Assembly: GCF_900115595.1 (NCBI RefSeq)
Contig: NZ_FOXA01000001.1
Coordinates: 62,001-126,000, forward strand
Direction: 5' to 3'
From: Tranquillimonas alkanivorans
GTDB lineage: Bacteria > Pseudomonadota > Alphaproteobacteria > Rhodobacterales > Rhodobacteraceae
Length of the DNA stretch: 64,000 nt
Below, in pieces: positions 1 to 64,000 of the stretch; within the stretch, counting starts at the first letter, position 1; every line of letters starts with the position of its first letter. Both the position numbers and the translations under genes were made by a program. A model generated the notes under the pieces. That model was given only the letters and a program-made list of their open reading frames with translations. It had not been told where the DNA came from and did not search any database.

Positions 1-116
1 GTGTCGCTCATCGCGTGCCTCGCTCGCGCGGGTTCGGCCCGCGCGGATGCAGGGTAATTCAGCGCGCCGGAGCGCGGCAAGCGGGCCCGCGGCGTCAGCC
101 GCGCGTTGTCCGCCCC

Positions 117-863
117 TCAGCGGATCCGCGCCAGCACGTCCTCGACCGACGCCTCGATCAGCGCAAGGCAGTCGGGCGTCGAGAAGCGGTGATCCGCTCC
201 CTTCACCAGCGTCAGCCGCACGTCGCCGCCGTCCAGGTGGTCGAGCAGGCGCAGAGCCACCGCGCGGTCCACGTCCTCGTCCTCGGTCCCCTGCAACAGG
301 CGCACCGGCACCTCCAGCGCCAGCGGATCGCGCAGGACGAGCTGCTGCCGCCCCTCCTCGATCAGCCGCTTGGTGATGACCAGCGGCTCGCCGTAGTCCG
401 ACGGCTGCTCCACCCGGCCCTCGCGTTCCAGCGCCAGGCGCTCGTCATCGGTGAATCCCGGCCACATGCTGTCCTCGGTGAAGTCGGGCGCGGCGGCGAT
501 ACCGACGAACCCGGCGACCGCCCCAGGCATCGCCTTGGCCACCAGCAGCGATACCCAGCCGCCCATCGACGAGCCCACCAGCACCTGCGGTCCCGCGCAC
601 AACGCCCCGATGGTCGAGATCGCATCCTCGGCCCAGTCGCCGATGGCGCCGTCCTCGAACGCCTCGGACGACTGCCCGTGCCCGGAATAGTCGAAGCGCA
701 GGAAGGCGCGGCCGGTGCGTTTGGCCCATGCCTCCAGGTGCACGGCCTTCGTGCCCTCCATGTCCGACCGGAAACCGCCCAGGAACACCACGCCGGGCTC
801 GGCCCCTTCGGTCTGGTGATAGGCGATGCACCGGCCCTGCGGCGTGTCGAGATACTCGGCCAT
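117..863 (-). CDS. alpha/beta hydrolase (serine hydrolase)
   Basis: This 248-aa cytoplasmic protein has the alpha/beta-hydrolase fold. The nucleophile elbow GSSMGG lies at residues 97-102, with Ser99 as the nucleophile. A C-terminal GADHRF segment supplies the likely catalytic His, and a strand-loop with GTEDEDV the likely Asp. There is no signal peptide. The start was chosen because an AGGGAG ribosome site lies just upstream of this ATG; an in-frame upstream extension has no such support. The gene is transcribed away from thrS and stands alone. The family cleaves esters, thioesters or peptides, and it resembles short-chain carboxylesterase or ABHD10-like enzymes, but the substrate cannot be read from sequence. 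Confidence 0.85.
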
Positions 864-50565: not shown

Positions 50566-52299
50566 ATGCCCCGCCTTTCCCGTTACCTTCCCGTGCTCGA
50601 CTGGGGCCGCCGCTATGACCGGCGCAAGCTGGGCGACGACGCCATGGCCGCGGCCATCGTCACCATCATGCTCATCCCGCAATCGCTGGCCTATGCCCTG
50701 CTGGCGGGCCTGCCGCCCGAGGCGGGGCTTTACGCCTCGATCGTGCCGATCCTGCTGTACGCGGTCTTCGGCACCTCCTCGGCGCTGGCGGTGGGGCCGG
50801 TTGCGGTGGTGTCGCTGATGACGGCGGCCACGCTGGGGCAGGTGACGGCCGAGCTGGACGTGGGCTATGGCCTGGCGGCGCTGACGCTGGCGGCGCTGTC
50901 GGGCGCGATGCTGCTGGCGATGGGGCTCTTGCGGCTTGGGTTCCTGGCCAACTTCCTGTCGCACCCGGTGATCGCGGGGTTCATCACCGCGTCGGGGCTT
51001 CTGATCGCGGCCAGCCAGCTCAAGCACGTTCTGGGGATCGAGGCCGAGGGCCACACGCTGGTCGAGCTGGTCCGTTCGCTGGGCGCACACCTGGGCGAGA
51101 CCAAGCCGGTCACGCTGCTGATCGGGGCCTTCGCGCTGGCCTTCCTGTTCTGGGTCCGCTCGGGGCTCAAGCCGCTCTTGCTGCGCGTGGGGCTGCCGGA
51201 GAAGGCCGCGGGCACGCTGACCAAGGCCGGGCCGGTGGTGGCGGTGGCACTGACCACGCTGGCCGCCTGGGGCTTCGCGCTGGACGAATCGGGGCTGGCC
51301 GTGGTGGGCGAGGTGCCGCAGAGCCTGCCGCCGCTGACCCTGCCTGCCTTCGCGCCCGATCTGGTGGCGCGGCTGGCGCTGCCGGCGCTGCTGATCTCGA
51401 TCATCGGGTTCGTCGAGTCGATCTCGGTCGCGCAGACGCTCGCCGCGAAGGCGCGCCAACGGGTCGAGCCGGACCAGGAGCTGATCGGCCTGGGCGCGGC
51501 GAATATCGGCGCGGCCTTCACCGGCGGCTTCCCGGTGACCGGAGGCTTCTCGCGCTCGGTCGTGAACTACGACGCGGGCGCGGCGACGCCGGCGGCGGGG
51601 GCGTTCACCGCGATCGGCCTGGCGGTCGCGGCACTGGTGCTGACGCCGCTCATCGCCTACCTGCCCAAGGCGACGCTAGCCGCCACGATCATCGTGGCCG
51701 TGCTGTCGCTGGTCGACTTCTCGATCCTCAAGCGCAGCTGGCAGTATTCGCGCGCCGACTTCGCCGCGGTCACAGCCACCATCCTCGTCACGCTGGGTTT
51801 CGGGGTCGAGGCGGGCGTGTCCACCGGCGTGCTGCTGTCGATCCTCATTCACCTCTACCGCACGGCGAAGCCGCACATGGCAGTCGTGGGACAGGTGCCG
51901 GGGACCGAGCATTACCGCAACGTGCTGCGCCACGAGGTCGTCACCGACCCCGCCGTGCTGACCGTGCGGGTGGACGAAAGCCTGTACTTCGCCAACGCGC
52001 GGTACCTCGAGGACAAGATCTTCGAGCATGTCGCGAAACGGCCCGAACTGCGCCACGTGGTGCTGATGTGCCCGGCGGTGAACGAGATCGACCTGTCGGC
52101 GCTGGAGTCGCTCGAGGCGATCAACACACGGCTGTCGGACGCGGGCGTGACGTTTCACCTGAGCGAGGTGAAGGGCCCGGTGATGGACCGGCTGAAGCGG
52201 AGCCACTTTCTGGACGAGCTGACGGGCGAGGTGTTCCTGAGCCAGCACCAGGCGGCGCAGGCGCTGCGCGACGGCCCGGTGTCAGCGGCGGCGCAATAG
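50566..52299 (+). CDS. SulP-family anion transporter with STAS domain
   Basis: A 577-aa membrane protein of the SLC26/SulP family. The conserved MLIPQSLAYALLAGLPPEAGLYASIVPILLYAVFGTSSALAVGPVAV block is at the N-terminus. About 12-14 helices follow, then the NIGAAFTGGFPVTGGFSRSVVNYDAGA block, and a C-terminal STAS domain from about residue 440 (LRHEVVTDPAVLTVRVDESLYFANARYLED). It carries sulfate, bicarbonate or another anion; which cannot be read from sequence. The start follows GGAGACGTTC. A perfect palindrome lies upstream. Its 3' end overlaps the convergent znuB by 18 bases. Confidence 0.93.
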   Translation: MPRLSRYLPVLDWGRRYDRRKLGDDAMAAAIVTIMLIPQSLAYALLAGLPPEAGLYASIVPILLYAVFGTSSALAVGPVAVVSLMTAATLGQVTAELDVGYGLAALTLAALSGAMLLAMGLLRLGFLANFLSHPVIAGFITASGLLIAASQLKHVLGIEAEGHTLVELVRSLGAHLGETKPVTLLIGAFALAFLFWVRSGLKPLLLRVGLPEKAAGTLTKAGPVVAVALTTLAAWGFALDESGLAVVGEVPQSLPPLTLPAFAPDLVARLALPALLISIIGFVESISVAQTLAAKARQRVEPDQELIGLGAANIGAAFTGGFPVTGGFSRSVVNYDAGAATPAAGAFTAIGLAVAALVLTPLIAYLPKATLAATIIVAVLSLVDFSILKRSWQYSRADFAAVTATILVTLGFGVEAGVSTGVLLSILIHLYRTAKPHMAVVGQVPGTEHYRNVLRHEVVTDPAVLTVRVDESLYFANARYLEDKIFEHVAKRPELRHVVLMCPAVNEIDLSALESLEAINTRLSDAGVTFHLSEVKGPVMDRLKRSHFLDELTGEVFLSQHQAAQALRDGPVSAAAQ

Positions 52300-53073
52300 A
52301 CCCCAGAGCGTCGTCGCCGCGAAAAGCCCGACGGCGACACAGACGATGCTGGGCCCCGCCGGCGCGTCGAGCACCCAGGCCAACCGCAGCCCGCCCAGCG
52401 CCGAGGTCATGCCTAGCGCGACGGCGATGGCCGCCATCGCCTCGGGCGTGCGGGCCAGCGGGCGGGCGGCGGCGGCGGGGATGATCAGCAGCGCCGTGAT
52501 CAGAAGCGCGCCCACGACCTTGATCGCGACGGCCACCACCACGGCCAGCGCCATCGTCAGGACCAGGCTTTCGCGGTGCGGGTTCACCCCGCTCGACTGC
52601 GCGAGGTCGGGGTTGAGCGTCGCAGTCAGCAGACGCGACCAGCGCCACAGGATCAGCCCCGTCACCAGCGCCACGCCCGCCCAGATCAGCCCGAGATCGG
52701 TGCGCCCAACGGCGAGGATGTCGCCGAAGAGGTAGGTTTCGGGGTTCATGGCGCGGCCCGGCAGCAGCGAAACCGCGAGCAGGCCCACGCCGAGCGAGCC
52801 GTGCGCCATCACGCCGAGCGTGGAGTCGTAGCTGGCACCGCGGCGCGCGAGGCCGGAGACAACGAGCGCCACGACGACGGCGACGAAGAGCACCCCGGTG
52901 AAGACCGAGACCTGGGCGAAGAGCGACAGCGCCACGCCCAGCAGCGCGGCGTGGGCGGTGGCGTCGCCGAAATAGGCCATGCGGCGCCAGACGACGAAGC
53001 AGCCGAGGATGCCGGCGGCGAGCGCCACGCCGAGGCTCGCCAGGGCGGCCCGCACCAGGAAATCGTCGAGCAT
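52282..53073 (-). CDS. znuB: zinc ABC transporter permease
   Basis: A 263-aa inner-membrane permease of the ABC-3 family with about eight helices. Family blocks are GCFVVWRRMAYFGDATAHAALLGVAL near the start and the later IKVVGALLITALLIIPAAAARPLARTPEAMAAIA. It forms the channel for Zn2+ uptake with ZnuC and ZnuA. Its start shares one base with the znuC stop. The 3' end overlaps the convergent SulP gene by 18 bases. Confidence 0.95.
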   Translation of the reverse strand: MLDDFLVRAALASLGVALAAGILGCFVVWRRMAYFGDATAHAALLGVALSLFAQVSVFTGVLFVAVVVALVVSGLARRGASYDSTLGVMAHGSLGVGLLAVSLLPGRAMNPETYLFGDILAVGRTDLGLIWAGVALVTGLILWRWSRLLTATLNPDLAQSSGVNPHRESLVLTMALAVVVAVAIKVVGALLITALLIIPAAAARPLARTPEAMAAIAVALGMTSALGGLRLAWVLDAPAGPSIVCVAVGLFAATTLWGLLRRR

Positions 53074-53813
53074 CAGGCGGGGTCCGGATGGCTGTGGTCG
53101 TGGGAATGGTCGTGCGTGTGGTCGTGTTCGTGGCGGTAGATCGCCATGACGTCCGCGCCCTCTCCGAACAGCGCGCGGTACTCGGGGGCGGCGCTGACGG
53201 CCTCGGGCGCGCCCTCGCAGCAGACGTGGCCGTTCAGGCAGATCACCCGGTCCGAGGCACGCATCACCACGTGCAGCTCGTGGCTGACCATGAGGACGGC
53301 GCAGCCGACTTCGTCACGGACCTCCTCGATCCGGCGGTAGAAGGCGGCCGAGCCCGGCGGGTCGAGGCCCTGCGTCGCCTCGTCGAGGATCAGGAGGTCG
53401 GGCTTCAGGAGCAGCGCGCGCGCCAGCAGCACGCGCTGGAACTGCCCGCCCGAAAGCGATGACATCTGCCGCGCGCCAAGGTCCCCCGCCCCGGCGCTGT
53501 CGAGCGCGGCCTGCGCGGCGGCGTTCCCGGCGCGCTTGGGCAGGTCGAGGAAACGGCGCACGGTCATCGGCAGGGAGTGGTCGACGTGCAGCTTCTGCGG
53601 CACGTAGCCGATTACCAGCCCCGGCGCGCGCTCGATCCGCCCCGACGTCGGCTTGACCGCGCCCAAAAGCGCCTTGAGCAGCGTCGTCTTGCCCGAGCCG
53701 TTGGGGCCGACGACGGTGACGATCTCGCCCTTATCGATCGACAGGTCCACGTCGCGCAGGACGGGGAGGCCTTCGTGCGCGACGCTCAGGTGTTTCGCGG
53801 CGATCAGGCTCAT
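53073..53813 (-). CDS. znuC: zinc ABC transporter ATP-binding protein
   Basis: A 246-aa ABC ATPase. Walker A GPNGSGKTT, signature LSGGQFQRV and Walker B LLILDEATQGLD are present, followed by MVSHELHVVMRASDRVICLNGHVCCEG. The protein ends with a His-rich tail (HEHDHTHDHSHDHSH), a common feature of ZnuC that may bind zinc and sense its level. It overlaps the zur stop by 4 bases and shares one base with znuB, so zur-znuC-znuB is one operon, autoregulated by Zur. Confidence 0.95.
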   Translation of the reverse strand: MSLIAAKHLSVAHEGLPVLRDVDLSIDKGEIVTVVGPNGSGKTTLLKALLGAVKPTSGRIERAPGLVIGYVPQKLHVDHSLPMTVRRFLDLPKRAGNAAAQAALDSAGAGDLGARQMSSLSGGQFQRVLLARALLLKPDLLILDEATQGLDPPGSAAFYRRIEEVRDEVGCAVLMVSHELHVVMRASDRVICLNGHVCCEGAPEAVSAAPEYRALFGEGADVMAIYRHEHDHTHDHSHDHSHPDPA

Positions 53814-54286
53814 GTTGCGTGGGTCTGGCAGGCGGGGCAGAGGCCCTCGGCCTCCATCACGGTGGCGGCGATGCGGAAGCCGCCGGTATCGGCCGTGCGC
53901 TCGAACGCGCCCTCGGCCTCGGCCACGGCGCCGCAATCGGTGCAGATCAGGAAGGCCGGGTCGTGGGAGGCACCGGGGCGGGCGCAGGCGACATAGGCGT
54001 TCAGCCGCTCGATCCGGTGGGCAAAGCCATGTTCCACGAGAAACGACAGCGCGCGGTAGGCCACGGGCGGCTGCGCGCCCCGCCCTTCCTGCGCAAGCCG
54101 GTCGAGCACGTCGTAGGCGCCGAGCGCGGCGTGCGACTCGAGCAGGATTTCCAGCACGCGGCGGCGGATCGGCGTGAACTTGAGCCGGTGGTCGCGGCAC
54201 GTCGCGTCGGCTGCCGCAAGGGCGGCGGCGACGCAGGCGGCGTGGTCGTGGGCGTCGAAGCCGAGAACGGGGTGGTCGTGGGCCAT
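53810..54286 (-). CDS. zur: zinc uptake regulator Zur (Fur family)
   Basis: A 158-aa Fur-family repressor. A winged-helix DNA-binding domain covers about residues 30-95 (FTPIRRRVLEILLESHAALGAYDVLDRL). The dimerisation domain has structural-zinc cysteines CTDC and CPAC. With zinc bound it represses zinc-uptake genes. It starts 34 bases from a palindromic Zur box in the 87-base gap to the divergent znuA gene. It is the first gene of zur-znuCB. Confidence 0.95.
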   Translation of the reverse strand: MAHDHPVLGFDAHDHAACVAAALAAADATCRDHRLKFTPIRRRVLEILLESHAALGAYDVLDRLAQEGRGAQPPVAYRALSFLVEHGFAHRIERLNAYVACARPGASHDPAFLICTDCGAVAEAEGAFERTADTGGFRIAATVMEAEGLCPACQTHAT

Positions 54287-54320
54287 GGGCGGGACGTAAC
54301 CGATCGGAAAGCCGCTTGCA

Positions 54321-54332
54321 ATGTTATAACAT
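54321..54332. promoter_or_regulatory. Zur box between zur and znuA
   Basis: ATGTTATAACAT is a perfect 12-bp palindrome and matches the core of the alphaproteobacterial/enterobacterial Zur box. It lies between divergent zur and znuA and could control both. Confidence 0.88.
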
Positions 54333-54373
54333 CACGAATAAGTGGTCGCCGACCGCAACCAAAGGAGCCGCCC

Positions 54374-55390
54374 ATGCGCCGCCTCGCCGTTCTGTTCCTC
54401 GCCCTGCCCGCCCCCGCCCTTGCCGCGCCGCCGCAGGTGGTGACGGACATTCCGCCGGTGGCGAGCCTTGCCGGCATGGTGCTGGGCGAGCTGGGCGAGC
54501 CGGTCACCCTGATCGGCGCGGGGGCCGAACCGCACGGCCACAACCTGCGCCCGTCCGAGGCGCGGGCCCTGCAGGACGCGGGGCTGGTGGTCTGGACCGG
54601 CGAGGCCCTGACCCCGTGGCTGGGCGAGGCGCTGGAGTCGCTCGCGCCGGACGCCGCACGGCTGGAGCTTCTGGACATCGCGCCGGTGGTGCACCCGGCG
54701 CGGCAGGACGGTGCGCACGGGGACGGGGATGAGGAGCATGACGGGGAGCACGATCATACGGAGGAGGCGCATGGCGCGGACGGGCATGAGCACGGGCATG
54801 AGGAGGACGCGCCCGGCGCGGACGATCGCTCCGACCATGCCCACGAGATGGGCCAGGACGCGCACGATCACGGCGACACGGACCCGCATGCCTGGCTCGA
54901 CCCGGTGAATGCCGCCGCGTGGCTGGAGGCCATTGCGGAGGACCTCGCGCGGCTCGACCCCGAGAACGCCGCCACCTACCGCGCCAACGCCGAGACAGGC
55001 GCGGCGCGGCTGGAGGCGCTGACGGCCGAGCTGACGGAACGGTTGGAGCCGGTGCAGGGCCGCCCCTTCATGACCTACCACGACAGCTTCCAGTATTTCG
55101 GCCAGCGCTTCGGGCTCGACTTTGCCGGGGCCATCGCCGGCAGCGACGCCGACCAGCCGGGCCCGGCCCGCGTGGCGGCGCTCCAGGACGAGGCGACCGA
55201 ACACGGCGTCGTCTGCCTGTTCACGGAGCCGCAGTTCGAACCGCGCCTGGCGCGGCTGGTGACCAAGGGGACGGACATCGCGGTGGCCGAGATCGACCCG
55301 CTGGGCACGACGCTGGAGCCGGGCCCAGGGCTCTACCCGGCGCTGCTGGAAGGCGTGGCGGACGCGATGATCGGCTGCCTGGGCGCGTGA
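54374..55390 (+). CDS. znuA: zinc ABC transporter substrate-binding protein
   Basis: A 338-aa periplasmic zinc-binding protein (cluster A-I). The signal peptide (MRRLAVLFLALPAPALA) is followed by the first metal His in AEPHGHNLRPS. A long His/Asp/Glu-rich loop follows (about residues 113-175), then the second metal-His block TDPHAWLDP and the third in TYHDSFQYF. The final ligand is in AEIDPLG. The acidic His-rich loop is longer than usual and should scavenge zinc. AAAGGAGCCGCC precedes the ATG, and a Zur box lies upstream. Confidence 0.96.
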   Translation: MRRLAVLFLALPAPALAAPPQVVTDIPPVASLAGMVLGELGEPVTLIGAGAEPHGHNLRPSEARALQDAGLVVWTGEALTPWLGEALESLAPDAARLELLDIAPVVHPARQDGAHGDGDEEHDGEHDHTEEAHGADGHEHGHEEDAPGADDRSDHAHEMGQDAHDHGDTDPHAWLDPVNAAAWLEAIAEDLARLDPENAATYRANAETGAARLEALTAELTERLEPVQGRPFMTYHDSFQYFGQRFGLDFAGAIAGSDADQPGPARVAALQDEATEHGVVCLFTEPQFEPRLARLVTKGTDIAVAEIDPLGTTLEPGPGLYPALLEGVADAMIGCLGA

Positions 55391-56005: not shown

Positions 56006-56718
56006 TGCGTGCCCTCCAGGAGCGTGGTCAGGGGAATGAGATGGGTGCCGGCGGCGTTCTTGAGCAGGAGGCCGAAAGCTTCGTCGGCGCCGAGCGCTTC
56101 GCCGGTGCGGCCGGCGACGGTGACGGTCTTGCCGGTGTCGTGCAGAAGGCCGGTCCACTCGGCATGGACGGGGCGGTTGCCCTCGTCGGTCCAGCGGTTG
56201 ATCCAGACCAGCGTATGGCGCGCCCAGGCCTCGAGCAGGTGGACGGGGTCGAGGTCGCCGCAGCCTTCCTCGTATAGCGCGGTCTCGTCCGGCGTTTCGC
56301 CCGGGGCCTCGGCCTCGCGCGAGAAGACGAGGTCCCAGCCGACGACGAGCCAGCCGGGGATTTCGTCCGGGTCGCTCGTGTCGGCGGCCATGCGCACGCC
56401 GCCGCAGCGCGCGCCGTTGACGCGGACGGGGCCCGACCAGTCGAGGTGGACGCCCACCTCGGGCGGGGCGAGCGCGCCGAGGGCGTTCTGCAGCCCCACC
56501 GCGCAGACCGGCAGCATCGCCACCGCCTGCGCCAGCGGCACGTCGGGGGCGAAGACGATGGCGGCGCGCAGCCGCTCGGCGGTTACGTTGTGCAGGATCA
56601 GGCCGCCGTCGCAGCCCTCCGCCGCCGCCTTGCGGGCCGCGGCGAAGGGGTCGGCGCCGAGCGTGGCGCGGCCCGACATCAGCGGCGGGAACGACGGCTC
56701 GGCCAGAGCGGTGCTCAC
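56002..56718 (-). CDS. biotin/lipoate-ligase-like protein with DUF4444
   Basis: A 238-aa protein. The N-terminal part resembles a biotin/lipoate A/B ligase fold (LPVCAVGLQNALGALAPPEVGVHLDWSGPVRVNGARCGGVRM), while the usual catalytic lysine motif is not evident. The C-terminal region carries the DUF4444-type segment (VHAEWTGLLHDTGKTVTVAGRTGEALGADEAFGLLLK). GTG at 56718 is the start; it forms a 4-base overlap with the mrp stop. Enzyme activity is uncertain; the ligase-like fold may bind or modify a cofactor for formate dehydrogenase. Confidence 0.8.
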   Translation of the reverse strand: MSTALAEPSFPPLMSGRATLGADPFAAARKAAAEGCDGGLILHNVTAERLRAAIVFAPDVPLAQAVAMLPVCAVGLQNALGALAPPEVGVHLDWSGPVRVNGARCGGVRMAADTSDPDEIPGWLVVGWDLVFSREAEAPGETPDETALYEEGCGDLDPVHLLEAWARHTLVWINRWTDEGNRPVHAEWTGLLHDTGKTVTVAGRTGEALGADEAFGLLLKNAAGTHLIPLTTLLEGTQ

Positions 56719-57779
56719 GCCTTGCCCTCCTCCACCAGCCGGCGGGCGACCTGGCGGAAGGCCTGTGCCTGCGGGCTGTCGGGCTTGGACACCACGATGG
56801 GCGCGCCCCCGTCCGAGGCCAGCCGGATGTCGAGGTGCAGCGGGATCTCGGCCAGGAGCGGCACGCCCAGCTTCTCGGCCTCGGTCGCGACGCCGCCATG
56901 GCCGAAGACGTGCTCTTCGTGACCGCACTTGGAACAGATGTGGGTGCTCATGTTCTCGATCATGCCGAGGATCGGCACCTTGAGCTGGTTGAACATGTCC
57001 ACGCCCTTGCGCGCGTCGATGAGCGCCACGTCCTGCGGCGTGCTGACGATGATGGCGCCCGAGACCTCGGCCTTCTGCGACAGCGTCATCTGCACGTCGC
57101 CGGTGCCGGGCGGCAGGTCGACGAGCAGAACGTCGAGCGCGCCCCACTGCACCTGGTTCATCATCTGCTGCAGCGCGCCCATCAGCATCGGCCCGCGCCA
57201 GACCACCGCCTGGCCCTCGTTCGTCATCAGGCCGATGGACATCATGGTGACGCCGTGGTTGCGCATCGGCAGGATGGTCTTGCCGTCGGGGCTGGCCGGG
57301 CGGCCGCTGACGCCCAGCATCCGGGGCTGGGACGGGCCGTAGACGTCGGCGTCGAGCAGGCCGACGCGGCGGCCCTCGGCCGCGAGCGCGCAGGCGAGGT
57401 TGGCCGAGACGGTGGACTTGCCAACGCCGCCCTTGCCGCTGGCGATGGCGACGATGCGGTCGATGCCGGGGAGCTTCTGCGGGCCCTGCGGCTCGGCCTT
57501 GCGCTGGGGCTTGAGCTCAGGCGGGGCCTTGGCGCTGTGGGCGGTCATCACCGCCGACACGCTCGACACGCCGGGCACGGCCTTGGCCTTGGCCTCGGCT
57601 TCGGCGCGGACGGGCTCCATCCGCTCGGCGGCCTGCGGGTTGACCTCGAGCACGAAGCGCACGGCGCCGTCGTTCACCGTCAGCGCGCGGACCATGCCCG
57701 CCGAGACGATGTCGGTGCCGCTGATCGGGTCCGCCACGCCCTTGAGCGCGGCCAGGATGTCTTCACGGGTGGCGGTCAC
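56715..57779 (-). CDS. Mrp/NBP35 ATPase, Fe-S carrier (ApbC type)
   Basis: A 354-aa P-loop NTPase that carries and transfers Fe-S clusters. An N-terminal DUF59-like domain is followed by a linker rich in Lys and Pro. The deviant Walker A motif is ASGKGGVGKST near residue 113, then DADVYGPSQPRMLG and DLPPGTGDVQMTLSQ. The C-terminal HICSKCGH (CxxC) holds the bridging cluster. Its setting beside several Fe-S proteins of a formate dehydrogenase cluster suggests it builds their clusters. It overlaps the DUF4444 gene by 4 bases. Confidence 0.94.
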   Translation of the reverse strand: MTATREDILAALKGVADPISGTDIVSAGMVRALTVNDGAVRFVLEVNPQAAERMEPVRAEAEAKAKAVPGVSSVSAVMTAHSAKAPPELKPQRKAEPQGPQKLPGIDRIVAIASGKGGVGKSTVSANLACALAAEGRRVGLLDADVYGPSQPRMLGVSGRPASPDGKTILPMRNHGVTMMSIGLMTNEGQAVVWRGPMLMGALQQMMNQVQWGALDVLLVDLPPGTGDVQMTLSQKAEVSGAIIVSTPQDVALIDARKGVDMFNQLKVPILGMIENMSTHICSKCGHEEHVFGHGGVATEAEKLGVPLLAEIPLHLDIRLASDGGAPIVVSKPDSPQAQAFRQVARRLVEEGKA

Positions 57780-57780
57780 G

Positions 57781-57981
57781 TCAGGAGCGCCCCTCGATCA
57801 TGCCCTCGACCACGTGCTCGACGTCGAGCCCCTCGACCGTCAGCACCATGCGGGCCCTGTAGGTCTTGCCGGCGGTCTCGGACTCGCCCTTTTCGCGCAT
57901 GGCCTCCTCGATCTTCTGCTGCGAGGTCACGCCGACCTGCTTGAGGAACTTCCTCATGCTCATGTTGAATTCGTCGCTCAT
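57781..57981 (-). CDS. DUF6494 small protein
   Basis: A 66-aa soluble protein matching a small family I know as DUF6494. It has the start MSDEFNMSMRKFLKQVGVTSQQKIEEAM and ends VVEGMIEGRS. It is probably a helical N-terminal half with a beta-hairpin (YRARMVLTVEGLDVEHV). ATG at 57981 was chosen because AGGAGGG lies 6-7 bases upstream and overlaps nothing; ATG at 57987 is too close to that site. It is the first gene of the leftward operon and ends 1 base before mrp. Function is unknown. Confidence 0.82.
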   Translation of the reverse strand: MSDEFNMSMRKFLKQVGVTSQQKIEEAMREKGESETAGKTYRARMVLTVEGLDVEHVVEGMIEGRS

Positions 57982-58071
57982 CCTCATCCCTCCTGTGGGT
58001 CGTGCCGAATTGACGCGGCGCGTGCCCCTCTCCTACCCTGCCCAAAGGCTTCGGGACAGGGAGGACCGCGC

Positions 58072-58809
58072 ATGCTTCTTCGCGCCGCCGCGACATGCGC
58101 CGCATTGTGGCTGCCGCTGGGTGCGGCGGCCGAGTCGTTCACCCTGTCGGCGCCCGCGGCGCTCGACGACAAGGGATTCCTCCAGTATCTCCTGCCGCGC
58201 TTCACGCTCAAGACCGGCAACCGTATCGAACGGGCCGACGAGGGCGCGGAGCTTGCGCTGGTGGCCGAGCCGCCGGGCACGCGGGTGTTCCGCGACGGCG
58301 AAAGGGTCTGGCGCCTGCGCGGCGACGGCGACGCGGACGGCGCGGCGGCGGACTTCGCGGACTGGATCACCTCGGACATCGGCATCCGCACCATCGAGAG
58401 TTTCGCGCCGGACGGCACGCCCGTCTATTCCGCCACGTTCGAGGAGGAGGAGACCGAGGCGGCGGTCGAATACGCGGGCGATCCCGACGAGGGCGAGGAC
58501 TTGTCGCTGGCGCTGTGCGGACGGTGCCACGTGGTGGGCGCGCGCAACCGGATGAAGGGGCTGGGCTCGACCCCGTCCTTCGGGGTCATGCGCACCTTCC
58601 CCGACTGGGAGGGGCGGTTCCTGGCGTTCTTCGCGCTCAAGCCGCACGGGGCGTTCACGGTGATCGAGGGTGTCACGCCGCCCTTCGACGACGCCCTGCC
58701 CCCGCCCATTGCGCCGGTCGAGATGACGCTGGACGAGTTGGACGCCATCGTGGCCTTCGTCGCCGGCATGGAGCCGGCCGACCTGGGCGCGCCGGTGCAG
58801 GCCCGCTGA
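58072..58809 (+). CDS. c-type cytochrome fused to a shortened TupA-like domain
   Basis: A 245-aa exported protein with a signal peptide (residues 1-20). Residues 21-120 look like the N- and C-terminal ends of a tungstate-binding protein: FTLSAPAALDDKGFLQYLLP resembles the TupA start, and AAADFADWITSDIGIRTIES resembles the closing helix. The middle lobe appears missing. The second half has one heme motif CGRCH (149-153) and Met residues for the distal ligand, and closes with DELDAIVAFVAGM. It is transcribed alone, divergent from the DUF6494-mrp operon. It may carry electrons or metal for formate dehydrogenase. The domain reading is an inference. Confidence 0.78.
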   Translation: MLLRAAATCAALWLPLGAAAESFTLSAPAALDDKGFLQYLLPRFTLKTGNRIERADEGAELALVAEPPGTRVFRDGERVWRLRGDGDADGAAADFADWITSDIGIRTIESFAPDGTPVYSATFEEEETEAAVEYAGDPDEGEDLSLALCGRCHVVGARNRMKGLGSTPSFGVMRTFPDWEGRFLAFFALKPHGAFTVIEGVTPPFDDALPPPIAPVEMTLDELDAIVAFVAGMEPADLGAPVQAR

Positions 58810-58814
58810 CGGCA

Positions 58815-60791
58815 TCAGTGGTCCCGGCGGTCCGAGTAGTAATCGTCGGTCGTGCGGGGCTTGCGCCGCTCGGGGCCCGCGAACGGGTTGTTCTGCGAGT
58901 GGTACTGCGCGCGCACGCGGCAATCGTCGCACATCTGGATCATGCGCGCCGCGTCGCCGGTGGCGAACATGGCGTGCTTGCCCGCGAGCTTTTCCATGAT
59001 CCGCTCGACCGTCGATTTCACGCCGAAGAGCGTGCCGCACTCGATGCAGGCGAAGGGCTCTTCCTCGTGCAGTACCTTCTGGGTCAGCGCCTCGTCCGCG
59101 AGGTTCAGGCGCGGCTCGAGCGCGATGGCGTCCTCGGGGCAGATGTTGGCGCACAGGCCGCACTGCAGGCAGGCATCCTCCTGGAACCTCAGCTGCGGCA
59201 GGTCGGGGTTGTCGCCCAGCGCACCCGACGGGCAGAGCGAGACGCAGGAGAGGCAGAGCGTGCAGGCGTCGGTGTCCACCAGCACCGCGCCATACGGGGC
59301 GCCTTCGGGCAGCGGTATGGGCTCGCGAATCTTCGTCGAAAATTCGCCGCCCGCGGCCAGCGCCTGCGCGGCGTTCCGCGCCACTTGGCGGCGGGTCCCC
59401 ATGGGCAAGATCGGGGTTTCGACCGGCGCGCCGGCCTCCGCACCGTAAAGCTGGTCGCACAGCGCGTCGGGGTCGAACGGGTCGAGAAGGCGCACCCGGC
59501 CCTCGCCCGCGATGGCGGCGGCCAGCTCGGTTTCCTTGTCCAGCGCATCGCGCTCGGTCGTAGGGGCGAGCAGCACGTCCACGCGGGTGAAGCCGGTGGC
59601 CAGCGCCGCCAGCATCTCGGCATGGCCGAAGCCCGCGATCGTGTCGAGGCCCAGCGGGATGACGTCGGCGGGCAGGCCGCGGCCGTAGCGCGCGGCGAGG
59701 CGGATCATCTGGTCGCCGTGGTTCGCGTCGTGGACCATCAGCTTCGGCGCGGTGCCGCCCGCGGCACGGAAGGCTCGCGACAGCGTCTCGATCCGGCGGA
59801 ACAGGTGGTCGACGGGCGGCGCGTCGTAGGCGATAGCGCCCGAGGGGCAGACCGCCGAGCATTCGCCGCAGCCCGCGCAGATCATCGGGTCGATCGACAC
59901 GTGTTCGCCCGCAGGCGTGATGGCGCCGGTGGGGCAGATGTCGAGGCAGCGGGTGCAGGCGGTCTTCTCGGCGCGGGAATGGGCGCAGAGCGGCTCGGTC
60001 AGGCGGACATAGAGCGGCTTTTCGAAGGTGCCGACGCGCTGGAGGGCGTCGCGCAGGACGGCCTGCACGCCGTTGGAGTCGCGCGGGTCGGCGCGCAGAT
60101 AGCCCTCGCGCTTGTGGGGCGCGGTGACCATGGGGGTGTCGCCGGTCAGGTCGATCAGGACGTCGCACTCGGATTGCGCGCCGTCGCGGGGCGGGCCGAA
60201 GGACAGATCGCCCCGGCCGCCGGGTTCAAGCTGCCGCAGCGCGTCGAGCGTGACCTCGAACCCGCCGAACGCGCCCGAGACGCGGCGGACGCGGCCGCGC
60301 ACGGTGTCGAAGCGGCGGTCGAGCGGCGGCTCGGCGGCGTCGGTCAGGCAGACGGTGACCGACAGGGCGTCGGCCAACGCCTCGGCCGCGGGGACGGCGA
60401 CGTCGGAGGCGCCGACGATCAGGCACAGCCCCTCGGACACCACGTCGAGGGTGCGGGTTTCGGGCCGGCGCAGCTGCGCTTCGGCCACCAGCGCGGCCAT
60501 CTTCGGGGTGGCGTCGGCCGACTCGTCGGACCAGCCGGCGCGATCGCGAATGTCGACAAATTCAGGTGGGTTTAGTCCGAGTTCCTCGGCCACCTCCTCG
60601 AAGCGCGCGCGCTCCTGCTGGCAGGCGATGACGGCGTCGCCGCGCTGGATGGCCTTGGCCGCCGAACTCATCTCACGCGTGCAGAGGGCGGTGTGCGTTC
60701 GCGAACACTTCAGCCCCGTGGCGTCCCCGAGCGCGTCGGCGTCGATCGGCTGCGAACCGGAACAGTCGCACAGAATCAGTTGCTTAGGCAT
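58815..60791 (-). CDS. multi-cluster ferredoxin-like protein of the formate dehydrogenase cluster
   Basis: A 658-aa soluble protein. The N-terminal LCDCSG pair (Cys8, Cys10) is followed by a CSRTHTALC segment. A first ferredoxin module has clusters at CTRCLDICP (279-287) and CAGCGECSAVCP (305-316). A second has CTLCLSCVSLCP (510-521) and CLQCGLCANICP (541-552). The C-terminus has a CIEC...CDDC pair (582-585, 621-624) that may bind zinc or iron. No flavin motif is obvious. It is convergent with the cytochrome gene. It is a good candidate for electron transfer partner or cluster scaffold for formate dehydrogenase. Confidence 0.85.
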   Translation of the reverse strand: MPKQLILCDCSGSQPIDADALGDATGLKCSRTHTALCTREMSSAAKAIQRGDAVIACQQERARFEEVAEELGLNPPEFVDIRDRAGWSDESADATPKMAALVAEAQLRRPETRTLDVVSEGLCLIVGASDVAVPAAEALADALSVTVCLTDAAEPPLDRRFDTVRGRVRRVSGAFGGFEVTLDALRQLEPGGRGDLSFGPPRDGAQSECDVLIDLTGDTPMVTAPHKREGYLRADPRDSNGVQAVLRDALQRVGTFEKPLYVRLTEPLCAHSRAEKTACTRCLDICPTGAITPAGEHVSIDPMICAGCGECSAVCPSGAIAYDAPPVDHLFRRIETLSRAFRAAGGTAPKLMVHDANHGDQMIRLAARYGRGLPADVIPLGLDTIAGFGHAEMLAALATGFTRVDVLLAPTTERDALDKETELAAAIAGEGRVRLLDPFDPDALCDQLYGAEAGAPVETPILPMGTRRQVARNAAQALAAGGEFSTKIREPIPLPEGAPYGAVLVDTDACTLCLSCVSLCPSGALGDNPDLPQLRFQEDACLQCGLCANICPEDAIALEPRLNLADEALTQKVLHEEEPFACIECGTLFGVKSTVERIMEKLAGKHAMFATGDAARMIQMCDDCRVRAQYHSQNNPFAGPERRKPRTTDDYYSDRRDH

Positions 60792-61070
60792 GAACTCGCC
60801 CCTTTTCGCGGATATTGGCCCACGCGTTCCCCGCAAGCGCAGGCCGGCGGGAAGAAAGTCACATATCGCCGCCGCGGTAAAGCCCTGCGCGGCCGGGGGC
60901 GCGGAGAATTGATCTGGACATCCCGGCACGCTAGAGGCAATTCGCGGCCCGGCAACGAACGGTAAGCTTCTGTATACTCTTCGGCAGAAAGATCTTGGCT
61001 GAGCGCGTGAGTCCCGTAATGATGGAAGACAAGAAGAAGGAGGGCCGCGTGCAGCGGCTTGGGAGGAAAC
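60792..61070. other. divergent intergenic region, ferredoxin gene / DUF3305 operon
   Basis: This 279-base gap contains a likely -10 (TATACT at 60973-60978) and no recognised regulator site. Near its right end a 20-codon ORF (61019-61081) overlaps the start of the DUF3305 gene. No RNA gene was seen. Confidence 0.45.
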
Positions 61071-61081
61071 TTGGCAGCTAG
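61019..61081 (+). other. possible 20-codon leader ORF upstream of DUF3305
   Basis: ATG ATG at 61019 opens a Lys/Glu-rich 20-aa frame (MMEDKKKEGRVQRLGRKLGS) that ends across the TTG start of the next gene. No clear ribosome site precedes it. It could be a translated leader, or chance. Confidence 0.3.
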
Positions 61082-61634
61082 CCGGTCGTCATCGCTCTCG
61101 ATGCCTGTCGGGGTCGTCGTTCGTCGACTGCCCGGCGTGACGCGTTGGGCGAAGTGGTCCTGGAAGGCGGTCGCCCTTCTGCCGGGCGCGGGTCCGGCGG
61201 ACTGGAGCGAGTTGCGCCGTGAAGGCGACGCCGTCGAGTACCACGCCGCCACGCTTCCGCTGGTGCTGTGGCGCACCGACACCGAGGCATACCTGCACGC
61301 GCTGGGCGCGCGGGTGCCGACAGTTGCCGTCGTCATGCGCCCCACCACCGATCCGCAGCGGCCGCTGGATGTGTTCCGCGTCACCGCATCGCCCTACGAG
61401 GCGCAGGATTACCAGGACAGCGGCGAAGAGATCGTCGAGCTCGTGCCGATGACCGCCGGGCTGCGCGCCTGGGTGCAGGATTTCTGCGACCGCCACCACG
61501 AGCACGAGCCCTTCGTGAAGCGCCGCCGCGGGCCGCGGATGGAGATGCGCGAAGAGGACGGCAAGGGCGATTCGCGGGTGCGCCAGATCTCGGACGTGTA
61601 TCGCGCGCCGCGCCCGAAGGAGCGGCTGCAATGA
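61071..61634 (+). CDS. DUF3305 family protein
   Basis: A 187-aa soluble protein. SMPVGVVVRRLPGVTRWAKWSWKAVALLPGAG at the N-terminus and the later LVLWRTDTEAYLHAL are the main family features of DUF3305. The protein is beta-rich, and its last third is charged. TTG at 61071 is the likely start: GGGAGG lies 4 bases upstream. ATG at 61101 has no ribosome site. DUF3305 is nearly always found beside formate dehydrogenase and DUF3306 genes. Function is unknown; a maturation role is inferred. It overlaps the DUF3306 gene by 4 bases. Confidence 0.83.
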   Translation: MAASRSSSLSMPVGVVVRRLPGVTRWAKWSWKAVALLPGAGPADWSELRREGDAVEYHAATLPLVLWRTDTEAYLHALGARVPTVAVVMRPTTDPQRPLDVFRVTASPYEAQDYQDSGEEIVELVPMTAGLRAWVQDFCDRHHEHEPFVKRRRGPRMEMREEDGKGDSRVRQISDVYRAPRPKERLQ

Positions 61635-62293
61635 GCCGGGGCGACTTCTGGTCCCGCCGCAAGGCGCGCGTCGCGGCCGAGGAACGCGCCGCGGCCGCCG
61701 CACGCGTGGCCGAGCTGGAGGCGCGGGAAGAAGAGACGCGCGAGGCCGAGGCCCGGGAGAAGACCGACGAGGAGATCCTTGCCGAGCTGGAGCTGCCCGA
61801 CCCCGACACGCTGAGCCCCGGTGACGACTTCAGCAAGTTCATGGCCCGGAAGGTGCCCGAGCGTCTGCGCCGCCGCGCGTTGCGCAAGCTGTGGACGTCG
61901 AACCCGGTGCTGGCCTGCGTGGACGGGCTGAACGATTACGACGACGACTACACGGTCGCGGCGGTGTCCGGCCCGGCGGTGCGCACGGCGTACCAGGTGG
62001 GCAAGGGCATGCTGCGCCACGTGCTCGAGACGACACCGCCCGAAACGCCGGCGGAAGAGGCCGTGCAGGTCGCCGCCGCCCCCGGCGCCGATACCGCACC
62101 GGCGGCCGCCGAAGACGTGCCTCCCGCCGAGGCCGATACAGATGCCGCCCCCGCGCCCGTCGCGGACGAGGTGCGCGACCCCGAAACGTCCCCCGCCCCG
62201 GCGCCCGAGACCGAGCCCGCCCCATTGGCGACCGGCCGCCGAATGCGCTTCACCTTCGCCGACGCAGGCGACCATCCCGCGGAGGACACATGA
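61631..62293 (+). CDS. DUF3306 family protein
   Basis: A 220-aa protein. The N-terminal half is a charged helix (residues 5-55, RRKARVAAEERAAAAARVAE onward) that could form a coiled coil. It is followed by the conserved LRRRALRKLWTSNPVLACVDGLNDYDDDYT, the hallmark of DUF3306. The C-terminal third is a low-complexity Ala/Pro/Glu/Asp linker (about residues 135-200), probably disordered. Coupled by ATGA overlaps to DUF3305 and to the TorD-like gene. Its function is unknown. Confidence 0.85.
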   Translation: MSRGDFWSRRKARVAAEERAAAAARVAELEAREEETREAEAREKTDEEILAELELPDPDTLSPGDDFSKFMARKVPERLRRRALRKLWTSNPVLACVDGLNDYDDDYTVAAVSGPAVRTAYQVGKGMLRHVLETTPPETPAEEAVQVAAAPGADTAPAAAEDVPPAEADTDAAPAPVADEVRDPETSPAPAPETEPAPLATGRRMRFTFADAGDHPAEDT

Positions 62294-62898
62294 GCGAAGC
62301 AGCAGCCGTGACAGACATCACCGAAGAAGACCGCCTCCGCGCGCAGCTTTACGACTTCCTGGCCATGCTTCTGGCGCATCCGCCGAACGCGGACCGGCTG
62401 AAGCAGACGGCGGGGCTGAGCGGCGACGACAGCGATCTGGGCCAGGCGATGCAGGCAATGGCCCGCGTTGCCGCCGCCACGTCCGAGACCGCCGTGCGGT
62501 CGGAGTTCAACAAGCTCTTCATCGGCCTGGGCCGGGGCGAGCTTCTGCCCTATGCCAGCTATTACCTGACTGGTTTCCTGAACGAGAAACCGCTTGCCCA
62601 GCTTCGCGCCGACATGGCGCGCAACCGCATCAGCCGCGCCCCCAACGTCTATGAGCCCGAGGACAACATCGCCTCGCTCCTGGAGATGATGGCGGGACTG
62701 ATCCTCGGCCGGTTCGGGGCGCCCGCGCCCCTGGACGAACAGAAGACGTTCTGGAACCGGCATATCGGCCCCTGGGCCGAACATTTCTTCACCGATCTCG
62801 AAGCTGCGAAGAACTCGGTCTTCTATGCGCCCGTCGGCACTGCCGGCCGGGTGTTCATGGGGATCGAGCGCGAAGGCTTCCGGATGCTTTCGGGCTGA
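62290..62898 (+). CDS. TorD/DmsD-family redox enzyme chaperone
   Basis: A 202-aa all-helical chaperone. EEDRLRAQLYDFLAMLLAHPP, EFNKLFIGLGRGELLPYASYYLTGFLNEKPLAQLRADM and EPEDNIASLLEMMAGLI are conserved TorD features. The family binds a Tat signal peptide or the apoprotein of a molybdoenzyme while the cofactor is inserted. Next to it are a Tat-signal protein and the formate dehydrogenase alpha gene, which are its likely clients. The start overlaps the DUF3306 stop by 4 bases. Confidence 0.92.
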   Translation: MSEAAAVTDITEEDRLRAQLYDFLAMLLAHPPNADRLKQTAGLSGDDSDLGQAMQAMARVAAATSETAVRSEFNKLFIGLGRGELLPYASYYLTGFLNEKPLAQLRADMARNRISRAPNVYEPEDNIASLLEMMAGLILGRFGAPAPLDEQKTFWNRHIGPWAEHFFTDLEAAKNSVFYAPVGTAGRVFMGIEREGFRMLSG

Positions 62899-62944: not shown

Positions 62945-63133
62945 ATGAAAGAAAAACCCGAAGGCGCCAGCCGCCGCGACTTCCTGAAACTCGCATCCGT
63001 TTCGGCGCCCGCCGCCGTCGCCGCCGCGACCTTGCCCGCCACGCAGGCGGACGCGGCTGCCGAGATCAAGGCGGACGGCCGGATGCAGGACACGGCCCAC
63101 ACCCGCGCGTACTACGACAGCGCCCGGTTCTGA
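62945..63133 (+). CDS. small Tat-signal protein of the formate dehydrogenase cluster
   Basis: A 62-aa protein that is almost all Tat signal. The twin-arginine motif SRRDFLK is at residues 9-15, followed by a hydrophobic region (LASVSAPAAVAAATLPA) and a short mature part of about 25 residues (AAEIKADGRMQDTAHTRAYY). It matches the family annotated elsewhere as formate dehydrogenase region Tat target. A GGAG site precedes the ATG. How so short a mature part works is unknown. Confidence 0.88.
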   Translation: MKEKPEGASRRDFLKLASVSAPAAVAAATLPATQADAAAEIKADGRMQDTAHTRAYYDSARF

Positions 63134-63199: not shown

Positions 63200-64000
63200 A
63201 TGCTGAAGAAGAAGACGAACGGGACGCAGCGGCGCACGAACCGCCCCGGCTTGGTCTCCTCCGTAACCGAAACGTCGGTCGACCGCCGCGCGTTCCTTCG
63301 CGGCTCGGGTCTTGCAATCGGCGGGCTGGCGGCGTTCGGCGCCACCGGCGGCACCGTCACGCAGGCCAGCGCCGCGACGGCGGTTCAGGGCGTGGTCGAC
63401 ACGGTGAAATCCGTGTGCACGCACTGCTCGGTCGGCTGCACGGTCGTGGCCGAGGTGAGCAACGGCGTCTGGGTCGGGCAGGAGCCCGGCTGGGACAGCC
63501 CCTTCAACCTGGGCTCGCACTGCGCCAAGGGCGCCTCGGTGCGCGAACACGCCCACGGCGAGCGCCGCCTGAAGTACCCGATGAAGAAAGAGAACGGCGA
63601 GTGGGTCCGTATCTCGTGGGAGCAGGCGATCAACGAGATCGGCGACCAGATGCTGGAGATCCGCGAGGAAAGCGGCCCCGACAGCGTCTACTGGCTGGGC
63701 TCGGCCAAGCATTCGAACGAGCAGGCGTACCTGATGCGCAAGTTCGCGGCCTACTGGGGCACGAACAACATCGACCACCAGGCGCGTATCTGCCACTCGA
63801 CCACGGTTGCGGGCGTTGCGAACACATGGGGCTACGGCGCCATGACGAACTCGTACAACGACATCCACAACAGCCGTGCCATCTTCGTCATCGGCGGCAA
63901 CCCCGCCGAGGCGCACCCGGTGTCGCTGCTTCACCTACTCAAGGCGAAGGAGCAGAACAACGCGCCGCTGATCGTCTGCGACCCGCGCTTCACGCGCACC
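63200..64000 (+). CDS. formate dehydrogenase alpha subunit (5' part)
   Basis: The first 267 codons of a molybdopterin oxidoreductase; the gene continues past the window edge. A Tat signal ([10 protein letters not shown], residues 28-37) marks periplasmic export. One [4Fe-4S] site is formed by Cys73, Cys76, Cys80 and Cys108 (CTHCSVGC then CAKGAS). Cys198 lies in ICHSTTVAG at the place where other enzymes have selenocysteine or Cys as the Mo/W ligand, so this is a Cys-type enzyme. It oxidises formate to CO2. It is preceded by the chaperone and Tat genes. Confidence 0.92.

Follow-up and report, generated by a model that had tools for sequence, protein, structure and literature searches.

The window, a stretch of 64,000 nucleotides of Tranquillimonas alkanivorans (contig NZ_FOXA01000001.1), contains an open reading frame at 58072-58809 on the forward strand, with an ATG start and a TGA stop, which encodes a protein of 245 amino acids. 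Its parts, read as an exported fusion within a formate dehydrogenase (FDH) cluster, and the genes around it are the following.

56715..57779, minus strand: Mrp/NBP35-family P-loop ATPase (ApbC-like); the same-place neighbour is so named in a Sagittula stellata plasmid, and the gene is conserved in the cluster
57781..57987, minus strand: DUF6494 protein, divergent neighbour (PF20104, E 2e-29)
58072..58809, plus strand: whole gene, an exported fusion in which a one-lobed domain derived from TupA precedes a monoheme c-type cytochrome
58072..58131, plus strand: Sec-type signal peptide, residues 1-20, by inspection only
58135..58446, plus strand: N-terminal domain (N-domain), residues 22-125 (~104 residues), assigned to TupA lobe A without lobe B
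58177..58230, plus strand: N-end TupA signature FLQYLLPRFTLKTGNRIE, residues 36-53 (hhalign)
58342..58404, plus strand: C-end TupA signature AAADFADWITSDIGIRTIESF, residues 91-111 (hhalign)
58477..58788, plus strand: c-type cytochrome domain, residues 136-239 (weak Pfam Cytochrom_C match, E 0.027)
58516..58530, plus strand: heme attachment motif CGRCH, residues 149-153
58645..58647, plus strand: His192 (PHP motif), candidate second axial heme ligand
58815..60791, minus strand: large 4Fe-4S protein (~658 aa, Fer4 domains), convergent, 5 bases after the cytochrome gene
61059..61634, plus strand: DUF3305 protein, start not fixed (PF11749, E 7e-39)
61631..62293, plus strand: DUF3306 protein (PF11748, E 3e-23)
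62290..62898, plus strand: TorD-family chaperone (PF02613, E 8e-31)
62945..63133, plus strand: small twin-arginine signal protein of the FDH cluster; the same-place gene is so annotated in the S. stellata plasmid, and it is conserved
63200..64000, plus strand: FDH3-type formate dehydrogenase alpha subunit, 995 aa, extending past the window end (TIGR01591)

A short acidic linker lies between the N-domain and the cytochrome domain. The first-pass annotation, made from the letters of the window, had already joined these two parts, and the family alignment agrees with it: the Cys, Cys and His of CGRCH are present in 47 out of 47 rows. Pfam Cytochrom_C was matched by eight out of nine A1 members at E<=10 (best 0.0026), and cytochromes c are among the PDB matches of the full-length profile (best E 0.027). 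No conserved Met sixth ligand of the class I type was found in the alignment, where the best Met column reaches 27 out of 47 rows, compared with 47 out of 47 for His192. The simplest reading of these columns is that the heme is probably bis-His ligated, through His153 and His192. The cytochrome tail (residues 195-245; 58654-58806) has a weak match to Pfam OB_ChsH2_C, with E 0.17 in the window protein; the same match was seen in two out of nine relatives, with a best E of 8.6e-4, under the cut-off.

The first-pass annotation had also proposed that the N-domain carries both terminal signatures of TupA, a tungstate-binding protein. Early TupA matches included the signal peptide, and the tests were therefore repeated from residue 22 on. 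The match persists with the profile built in this way, and signal-peptide similarity was rejected as its source. The N-domain profile (A4) consisted of 24 mature rows without signal peptide; the remaining one of the 25, L022, was excluded, its chosen start being without the first strand. An hmmsearch of 177,635 PDB sequences with this profile retrieved 3muq (E 2e-6), 5my5 (1.6e-4), 3cvg (1.5e-3) and 3lr1 (7.7e-3) as the top four, and the matches fall either near the target start (profile 2-48) or near the target end (62-102). The entries named as TupA or tungstate-binding among them are 5my5 and 3lr1, while the TTTS start is visible in the alignment of 3muq; 3cvg, labelled 'putative metal binding protein', is a look-alike only.

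Profile-profile alignment with hhalign, against a TupA profile of 25 rows, gave two collinear segments: query 2-42 aligned with TupA 5-45 (score 60.2) and query 68-101 with TupA 215-248 (score 52.6). The controls stayed far below, at 21.9 for the best of 300 column shuffles, 10.9 for the reversed profile and 12.3 for the cytochrome domain. The TupA frames for this profile came from 54 derived by tblastn, 29 of which were skipped under a strict motif rule or as fragments. When the middle of the TupA profile was removed in silico, a single end-to-end match was obtained; the twelve best of 306 cuts score 101-105, so the exact deletion points are not fixed. Both end signatures are thus borne out, well beyond chance, by the PDB-wide profile search and by the collinear hhalign segments.

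The same pattern was observed in individual open reading frames. The N end was matched in 52 out of 54 TupA ORFs, the C end in 49, and both in order with more than 100 residues between them in 48, a biased rate because many TupA loci were fetched by their match to the fusion family, and one in which some genes are possibly counted twice. The control lies in the zeros: both ends were matched in 0 out of 2,194 other ORFs (one end in two), and neither reversed nor shuffled TupA sequences matched (0 out of 54 each). Additionally, among NCBIfam families the TupA model NF041772 ranks first for the N-domains (5 out of 24 members at E<=10, best 0.0015). A plain BLAST comparison of the TupA encoded in the window genome with the relative in G347 matched both ends, with E-values of 4.7e-4 and 4.5e-6. 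We conclude that residues ~22-125 are almost certainly TupA lobe A joined to a cytochrome.

The structural comparison points in the same direction. AlphaFold2 was given the N-domain with five family rows and no TupA row; the best model had a pLDDT of 78.4 and a pTM of 0.70, and the other four remained below 58 pLDDT. In the VIA-align ranking of this model, TupA 5my5 came first (Z 12.3, 2.3 A, 103 out of 104 residues, chain range 4..251), followed by 3cvg (10.6), 3kn3 (10.4), 3muq (10.0), ModA 1atg (9.3) and TupA 3lr1 (9.2). The predicted fold is clearly that of a binding-protein lobe. Since ModA 1atg ties with TupA 3lr1, the assignment to TupA, as opposed to ModA, rests mainly on sequence. Foldseek ranked 3muq first (E 0.017) and 3lr1 second (0.053), with no match under E 0.001, a result that is not significant alone. 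The model of the full-length protein (pLDDT 46.9) is too poor to show the relative placement of the domains. A profile search and a structure prediction had been proposed as checks of the original claim; run on residues 22-125, they identified TupA at each end and passed over the middle lobe. It might be argued that the resemblance arose by chance or reflects generic binding-protein similarity, and that the N-domain is an unrelated fold. As a single sequence, the N-domain of the window has no NCBIfam or Pfam match, and both the best Foldseek E-value and the tie between a ModA and one TupA would be compatible with such a view. The profile matches nevertheless hold against shuffled, reversed and unrelated controls, and the best non-TupA ORF (ModA-like by reading) reached 8.7 bits, against up to 53 for TupA, which leaves this explanation with next to no credibility.

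In the structural description of TupA, lobe A comprises A2-R76 plus Y201-E251 and lobe B comprises A91-Q200, while the conserved site residues, in the part of that source available to us, are T9-11, S12, H59, R118, T124 and D170 (PMC5517513). Given these limits and the two matched ends, the N-domain corresponds to lobe A alone. The absence of the middle lobe, claimed at the outset, was confirmed: in the 32 genes that carry the domain, its ~104 residues leave no room for lobe B (about 110 residues), and a two-lobed Venus-flytrap fold with lobe B was found in none of them. R118, T124 and D170 belong to the missing lobe, and none of the 25 aligned rows has Thr-Thr where TupA has TTTS (L022 is partly gapped there). 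Because this lobe-A motif is lost as well, tungstate binding by the N-domain seems very unlikely. The fusion protein is, therefore, like TupA (NF041772; 5my5, 3lr1) in having both lobe-A ends in sequence and order and in overlaying 5my5 as a model, and unlike it in lacking lobe B and the TTTS motif and in carrying a cytochrome. The initial description of a half-deleted binding domain holds with regard to the missing lobe B, but not as fresh damage, since the short domain is a conserved state of the family. A single-genome artefact (frameshift or assembly deletion) was rejected, given that the same short domain occurs in 32 genes from many genera. Work on the halves of ribose-binding protein has indicated that one lobe of a binding protein is able to fold without the other; as far as the available part of that study describes, those were laboratory constructs of another binding protein, whereas here the half is natural, conserved and fused (PMC9815098).

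The neighbouring enzyme was assigned to the FDH3 type through its beta subunit, which matches NF038355 with 342 bits, compared with a cut-off of 240; this agrees with the formate dehydrogenase neighbour named in the first-pass annotation. TIGR01591 is the best match to both pieces of the alpha subunit, below its cut-off on the pieces, and this subunit contains ARICHSTTV, which we take to be the active-site motif with Cys. The beta subunit has alpha and gamma subunits nearby, as defines an FDH3 cluster, with NF038355 and TIGR01583 over their cut-offs, and the S. stellata plasmid has an identical gene order, labelled FDH3. The gene content around the fusion resembles that of known FDH3 clusters (NF038355) and of the fdhGHI operons with DUF3305/DUF3306, Tat protein, Fer4 and TorD; in contrast, the available part of the operon description mentions neither this cytochrome nor a tupA-derived gene (PMC4464133). 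A second cytochrome, with WD40 repeats followed by a c-type cytochrome domain, is encoded just downstream of the window, after fdhC (L059:4177-5460; Pfam WD40 E 6e-38, Cytochrom_C E 1e-8), and is also found beside FDH in some relatives. Elsewhere in the window, at 52282-55390, ORF reading indicates an apparent zinc uptake locus (ABC permease, ATPase, Fur-family regulator and His-rich binding protein).

The association between the fusion and formate dehydrogenase, which the first-pass annotation suggested examining, was found to be close. FDH-cluster genes flank 30 out of 32 fusions, and FdhA itself is present beside 28. The two exceptions are G010, whose contig ends 154 bases after the fusion gene, and G347, whose contig, examined over its full length, has the Mrp and DUF6494 neighbours but lacks any FDH gene. 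The 4Fe-4S protein of the cluster was detected at E<1e-80 in 34 out of 101 genomes, 20 with the fusion, three with the cytochrome domain only and 11 with neither; among the 67 genomes lacking this match, the fusion occurs in one (G010), at a contig end. The usual place of the fusion gene is between the DUF6494/Mrp genes and the 4Fe-4S gene. G002 (same genus), G008, G040 and G015 keep the FDH cluster, with no match between the usual neighbours of the fusion gene, and the gene is therefore an accessory part. The FDH3 cluster of G002 (L151) is closely related, with about 120 bases between those neighbours. In G015 (L155:8775-10735), the match to the large 4Fe-4S protein is divided between two separate segments, as though the protein had been split. 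Overall, the reading of a binding protein that was shortened and made part of a heme protein beside a tungsten/molybdenum enzyme is supported by the profile, structure-model and neighbourhood data.

A cytochrome fused to a binding protein is a known kind of protein, with XoxGJ as the nearest precedent. This protein of Methylacidiphilum is described as joining the cytochrome XoxG to the binding protein XoxJ and as accepting electrons from the methanol dehydrogenase XoxF (PMC8498564). In Methylobacterium extorquens grown on methanol with lanthanum, the loss of xoxG or xoxJ is reported to equal the loss of xoxF1 and xoxF2 (PMC7391723). In its described build, XoxGJ shares with the present fusion a c-type cytochrome and a periplasmic binding-protein domain tied to a periplasmic dehydrogenase (PMC8498564); it differs in that here TupA is the donor, one lobe only is present and the neighbour is a formate dehydrogenase. 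The original statement that no described protein was known to have such a build thus needs to be narrowed: the single TupA lobe was not found described, in the open-licence PMC literature, as part of a cytochrome fusion, but the fusion of a cytochrome and a binding protein has a precedent. The same precedent could also point to a function in maturation as opposed to respiration. The fusion would help to assemble or activate the tungsten/molybdenum enzyme alongside the Mrp ATPase, the TorD-type chaperone and the 4Fe-4S protein, its lobe gripping the enzyme as proposed for XoxJ, for which an interaction with XoxF1, and perhaps its activation, has been reported (PMC7391723). The usual position of the gene would suit such a function. 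On the other hand, four FDH clusters do without the gene and a pure chaperone needs no covalent heme, and we regard this function as distinctly unlikely.

The tupA gene is in the fetched flank of 11 out of 32 fusion genes. In ABC importers generally, some of the surface with which a binding protein docks lies on lobe A. Both points would fit a half-lobe that has kept the ability to dock on TupB, the permease; it would then anchor the cytochrome at the tungstate importer or compete with TupA. The linkage to tupA is loose, tupBCA of the window genome is on another contig, and there is no known reason for a heme at an importer; we thus consider docking on TupB improbable.

Relatives of the protein were present in 24 out of 101 genomes, including its own, 21 of them with the N-domain and three with the cytochrome domain only. 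Four named loci and overlapping samples of 385 class and 398 phylum genomes provided further relatives, bringing the totals to 32 genes with the N-domain and 14 without it (signal peptide and cytochrome domain only, by reading); these totals and the tree exclude cytochrome-domain matches weaker than about E 1e-11 from the class and phylum samples. The fusion is a conserved family in the FDH3 cluster of Rhodobacterales and close relatives, including the marine Roseobacter group. Homologues with a clearly different N-terminal domain would have spoken against the assignment, and none was seen among the relatives examined, which have either the short N-domain or none, with the weaker cytochrome matches outside this set. 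Among the matches listed in the class and phylum samples, we found no full-length TupA-cytochrome fusion beyond the short fusions. In Sagittula stellata (L172, NZ_CP155732.1), the FDH3 region with the fusion gene is on a plasmid, and in Sulfitobacter sp. S190 (L173, NZ_CP081121.1), a plasmid carries the fusion gene together with the upstream portion of the cluster, up to the record start. Five plasmid homologues carry annotations, four as hypothetical protein and one as c-type cytochrome.

The cytochrome-domain tree contained 47 rows, one gene being present twice (L028 = L092). All 32 fusions grouped with three cytochrome-only genes (G006, G056 and G156) with a support of 95/95, while the other cytochrome-only genes fell outside. 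The N-domain label requires four changes on the tree (4-5 in bootstraps, with two forced by starred branches), a number consistent with a single gain of the lobe and about three losses, on a tree in which many inner forks are weak, L027 (G056) and four other rows are long branches and the root is for drawing only. In G156 (L141), the gene order is as in the window and the gene consists of signal peptide and heme domain only, as though the TupA lobe had been neatly cut out. Of the 14 cytochrome-only loci fetched, eight are near FDH-cluster genes and five are within 10 kb of tupA; in L136, the cytochrome-only gene directly precedes tupBCA on the same strand. These positions suggest that the capture took place within a shared FDH/tungstate neighbourhood. 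A cytochrome gene that was already in this FDH/tungstate-uptake neighbourhood may have captured part of a tupA gene once.

The N-domain is constrained, although less so than the heme part. In the eight closest pairs, dN/dS was 0.19-0.62 for the N-domain and 0.05-0.44 for the cytochrome domain (NG86, with high dS), and the mean pairwise identity over 300 pairs was 38.2% and 57.0%, respectively. These differences could indicate that the half-TupA domain is only a passive appendage, or one in slow decay, in which case the cytochrome alone works and its partner need not be formate dehydrogenase. The three genes without the N-domain nested in the fusion clade, with G156 keeping signal peptide and cytochrome at the equivalent site, fit such an appendage, as do the greater variability and the higher dN/dS (up to 0.62). 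Against it stand the retention of the domain in 32 genes, seven residues invariant in 25 rows (G35, P42, R43, F44, K47, W98 and G104), a dN below dS in all eight pairs and the lack of a stop inside any fusion match. We consider a passive appendage unlikely, though deserving of some weight.

We favour a different reading, in which the half-domain, no longer able to close on an oxyanion, would mediate protein contacts and so allow the cytochrome to dock on the exported formate dehydrogenase complex. Formate oxidation would then supply electrons to the heme, in a side branch beside the route through the membrane cytochrome b subunit. In broader terms, the protein would be an exported carrier of electrons for FDH3 whose half-lobe aids docking or assembly. 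The support for this role comes from the position of the gene, its conservation and the XoxGJ precedent, by analogy with which a function as docking electron acceptor appears possible, if short of an even chance. The FDH cluster already encodes a cytochrome b subunit, and the window genome and some relatives have the second, WD40-linked cytochrome; both count against the role, as does the apparent loss of the N-domain in G006, G056 and G156, the last of which keeps the FDH context. So do the four FDH clusters that lack the gene and the G347 contig, which has no FDH gene. Taken as a whole, the best explanation, a one-time capture from tupA that yielded a docking half-lobe on an electron carrier for FDH3, is about as probable as its negation. 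More specifically, and only tentatively, evolution may have trimmed a two-lobed binding protein down to one stable lobe, which now serves that carrier as its docking head.

Enzymes sometimes acquire an entire ABC-importer binding protein as a partner, as with XoxJ; here, half of one was kept, its ligand residues were stripped and a heme domain was joined to it, in one lineage. With one gain and about three losses on the tree, the family thus offers a traceable case of a metal-uptake protein in a metalloenzyme cluster turned into something else: a protein for catching metal has apparently been put to new use within an electron carrier. If true, this would amount to nature undoing the duplication from which two-lobed binding proteins are thought to have arisen, and it would represent a new type of electron exit from FDH3. 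For the FDH3 formate dehydrogenases of marine Roseobacters, it names a testable candidate for an electron acceptor or helper.
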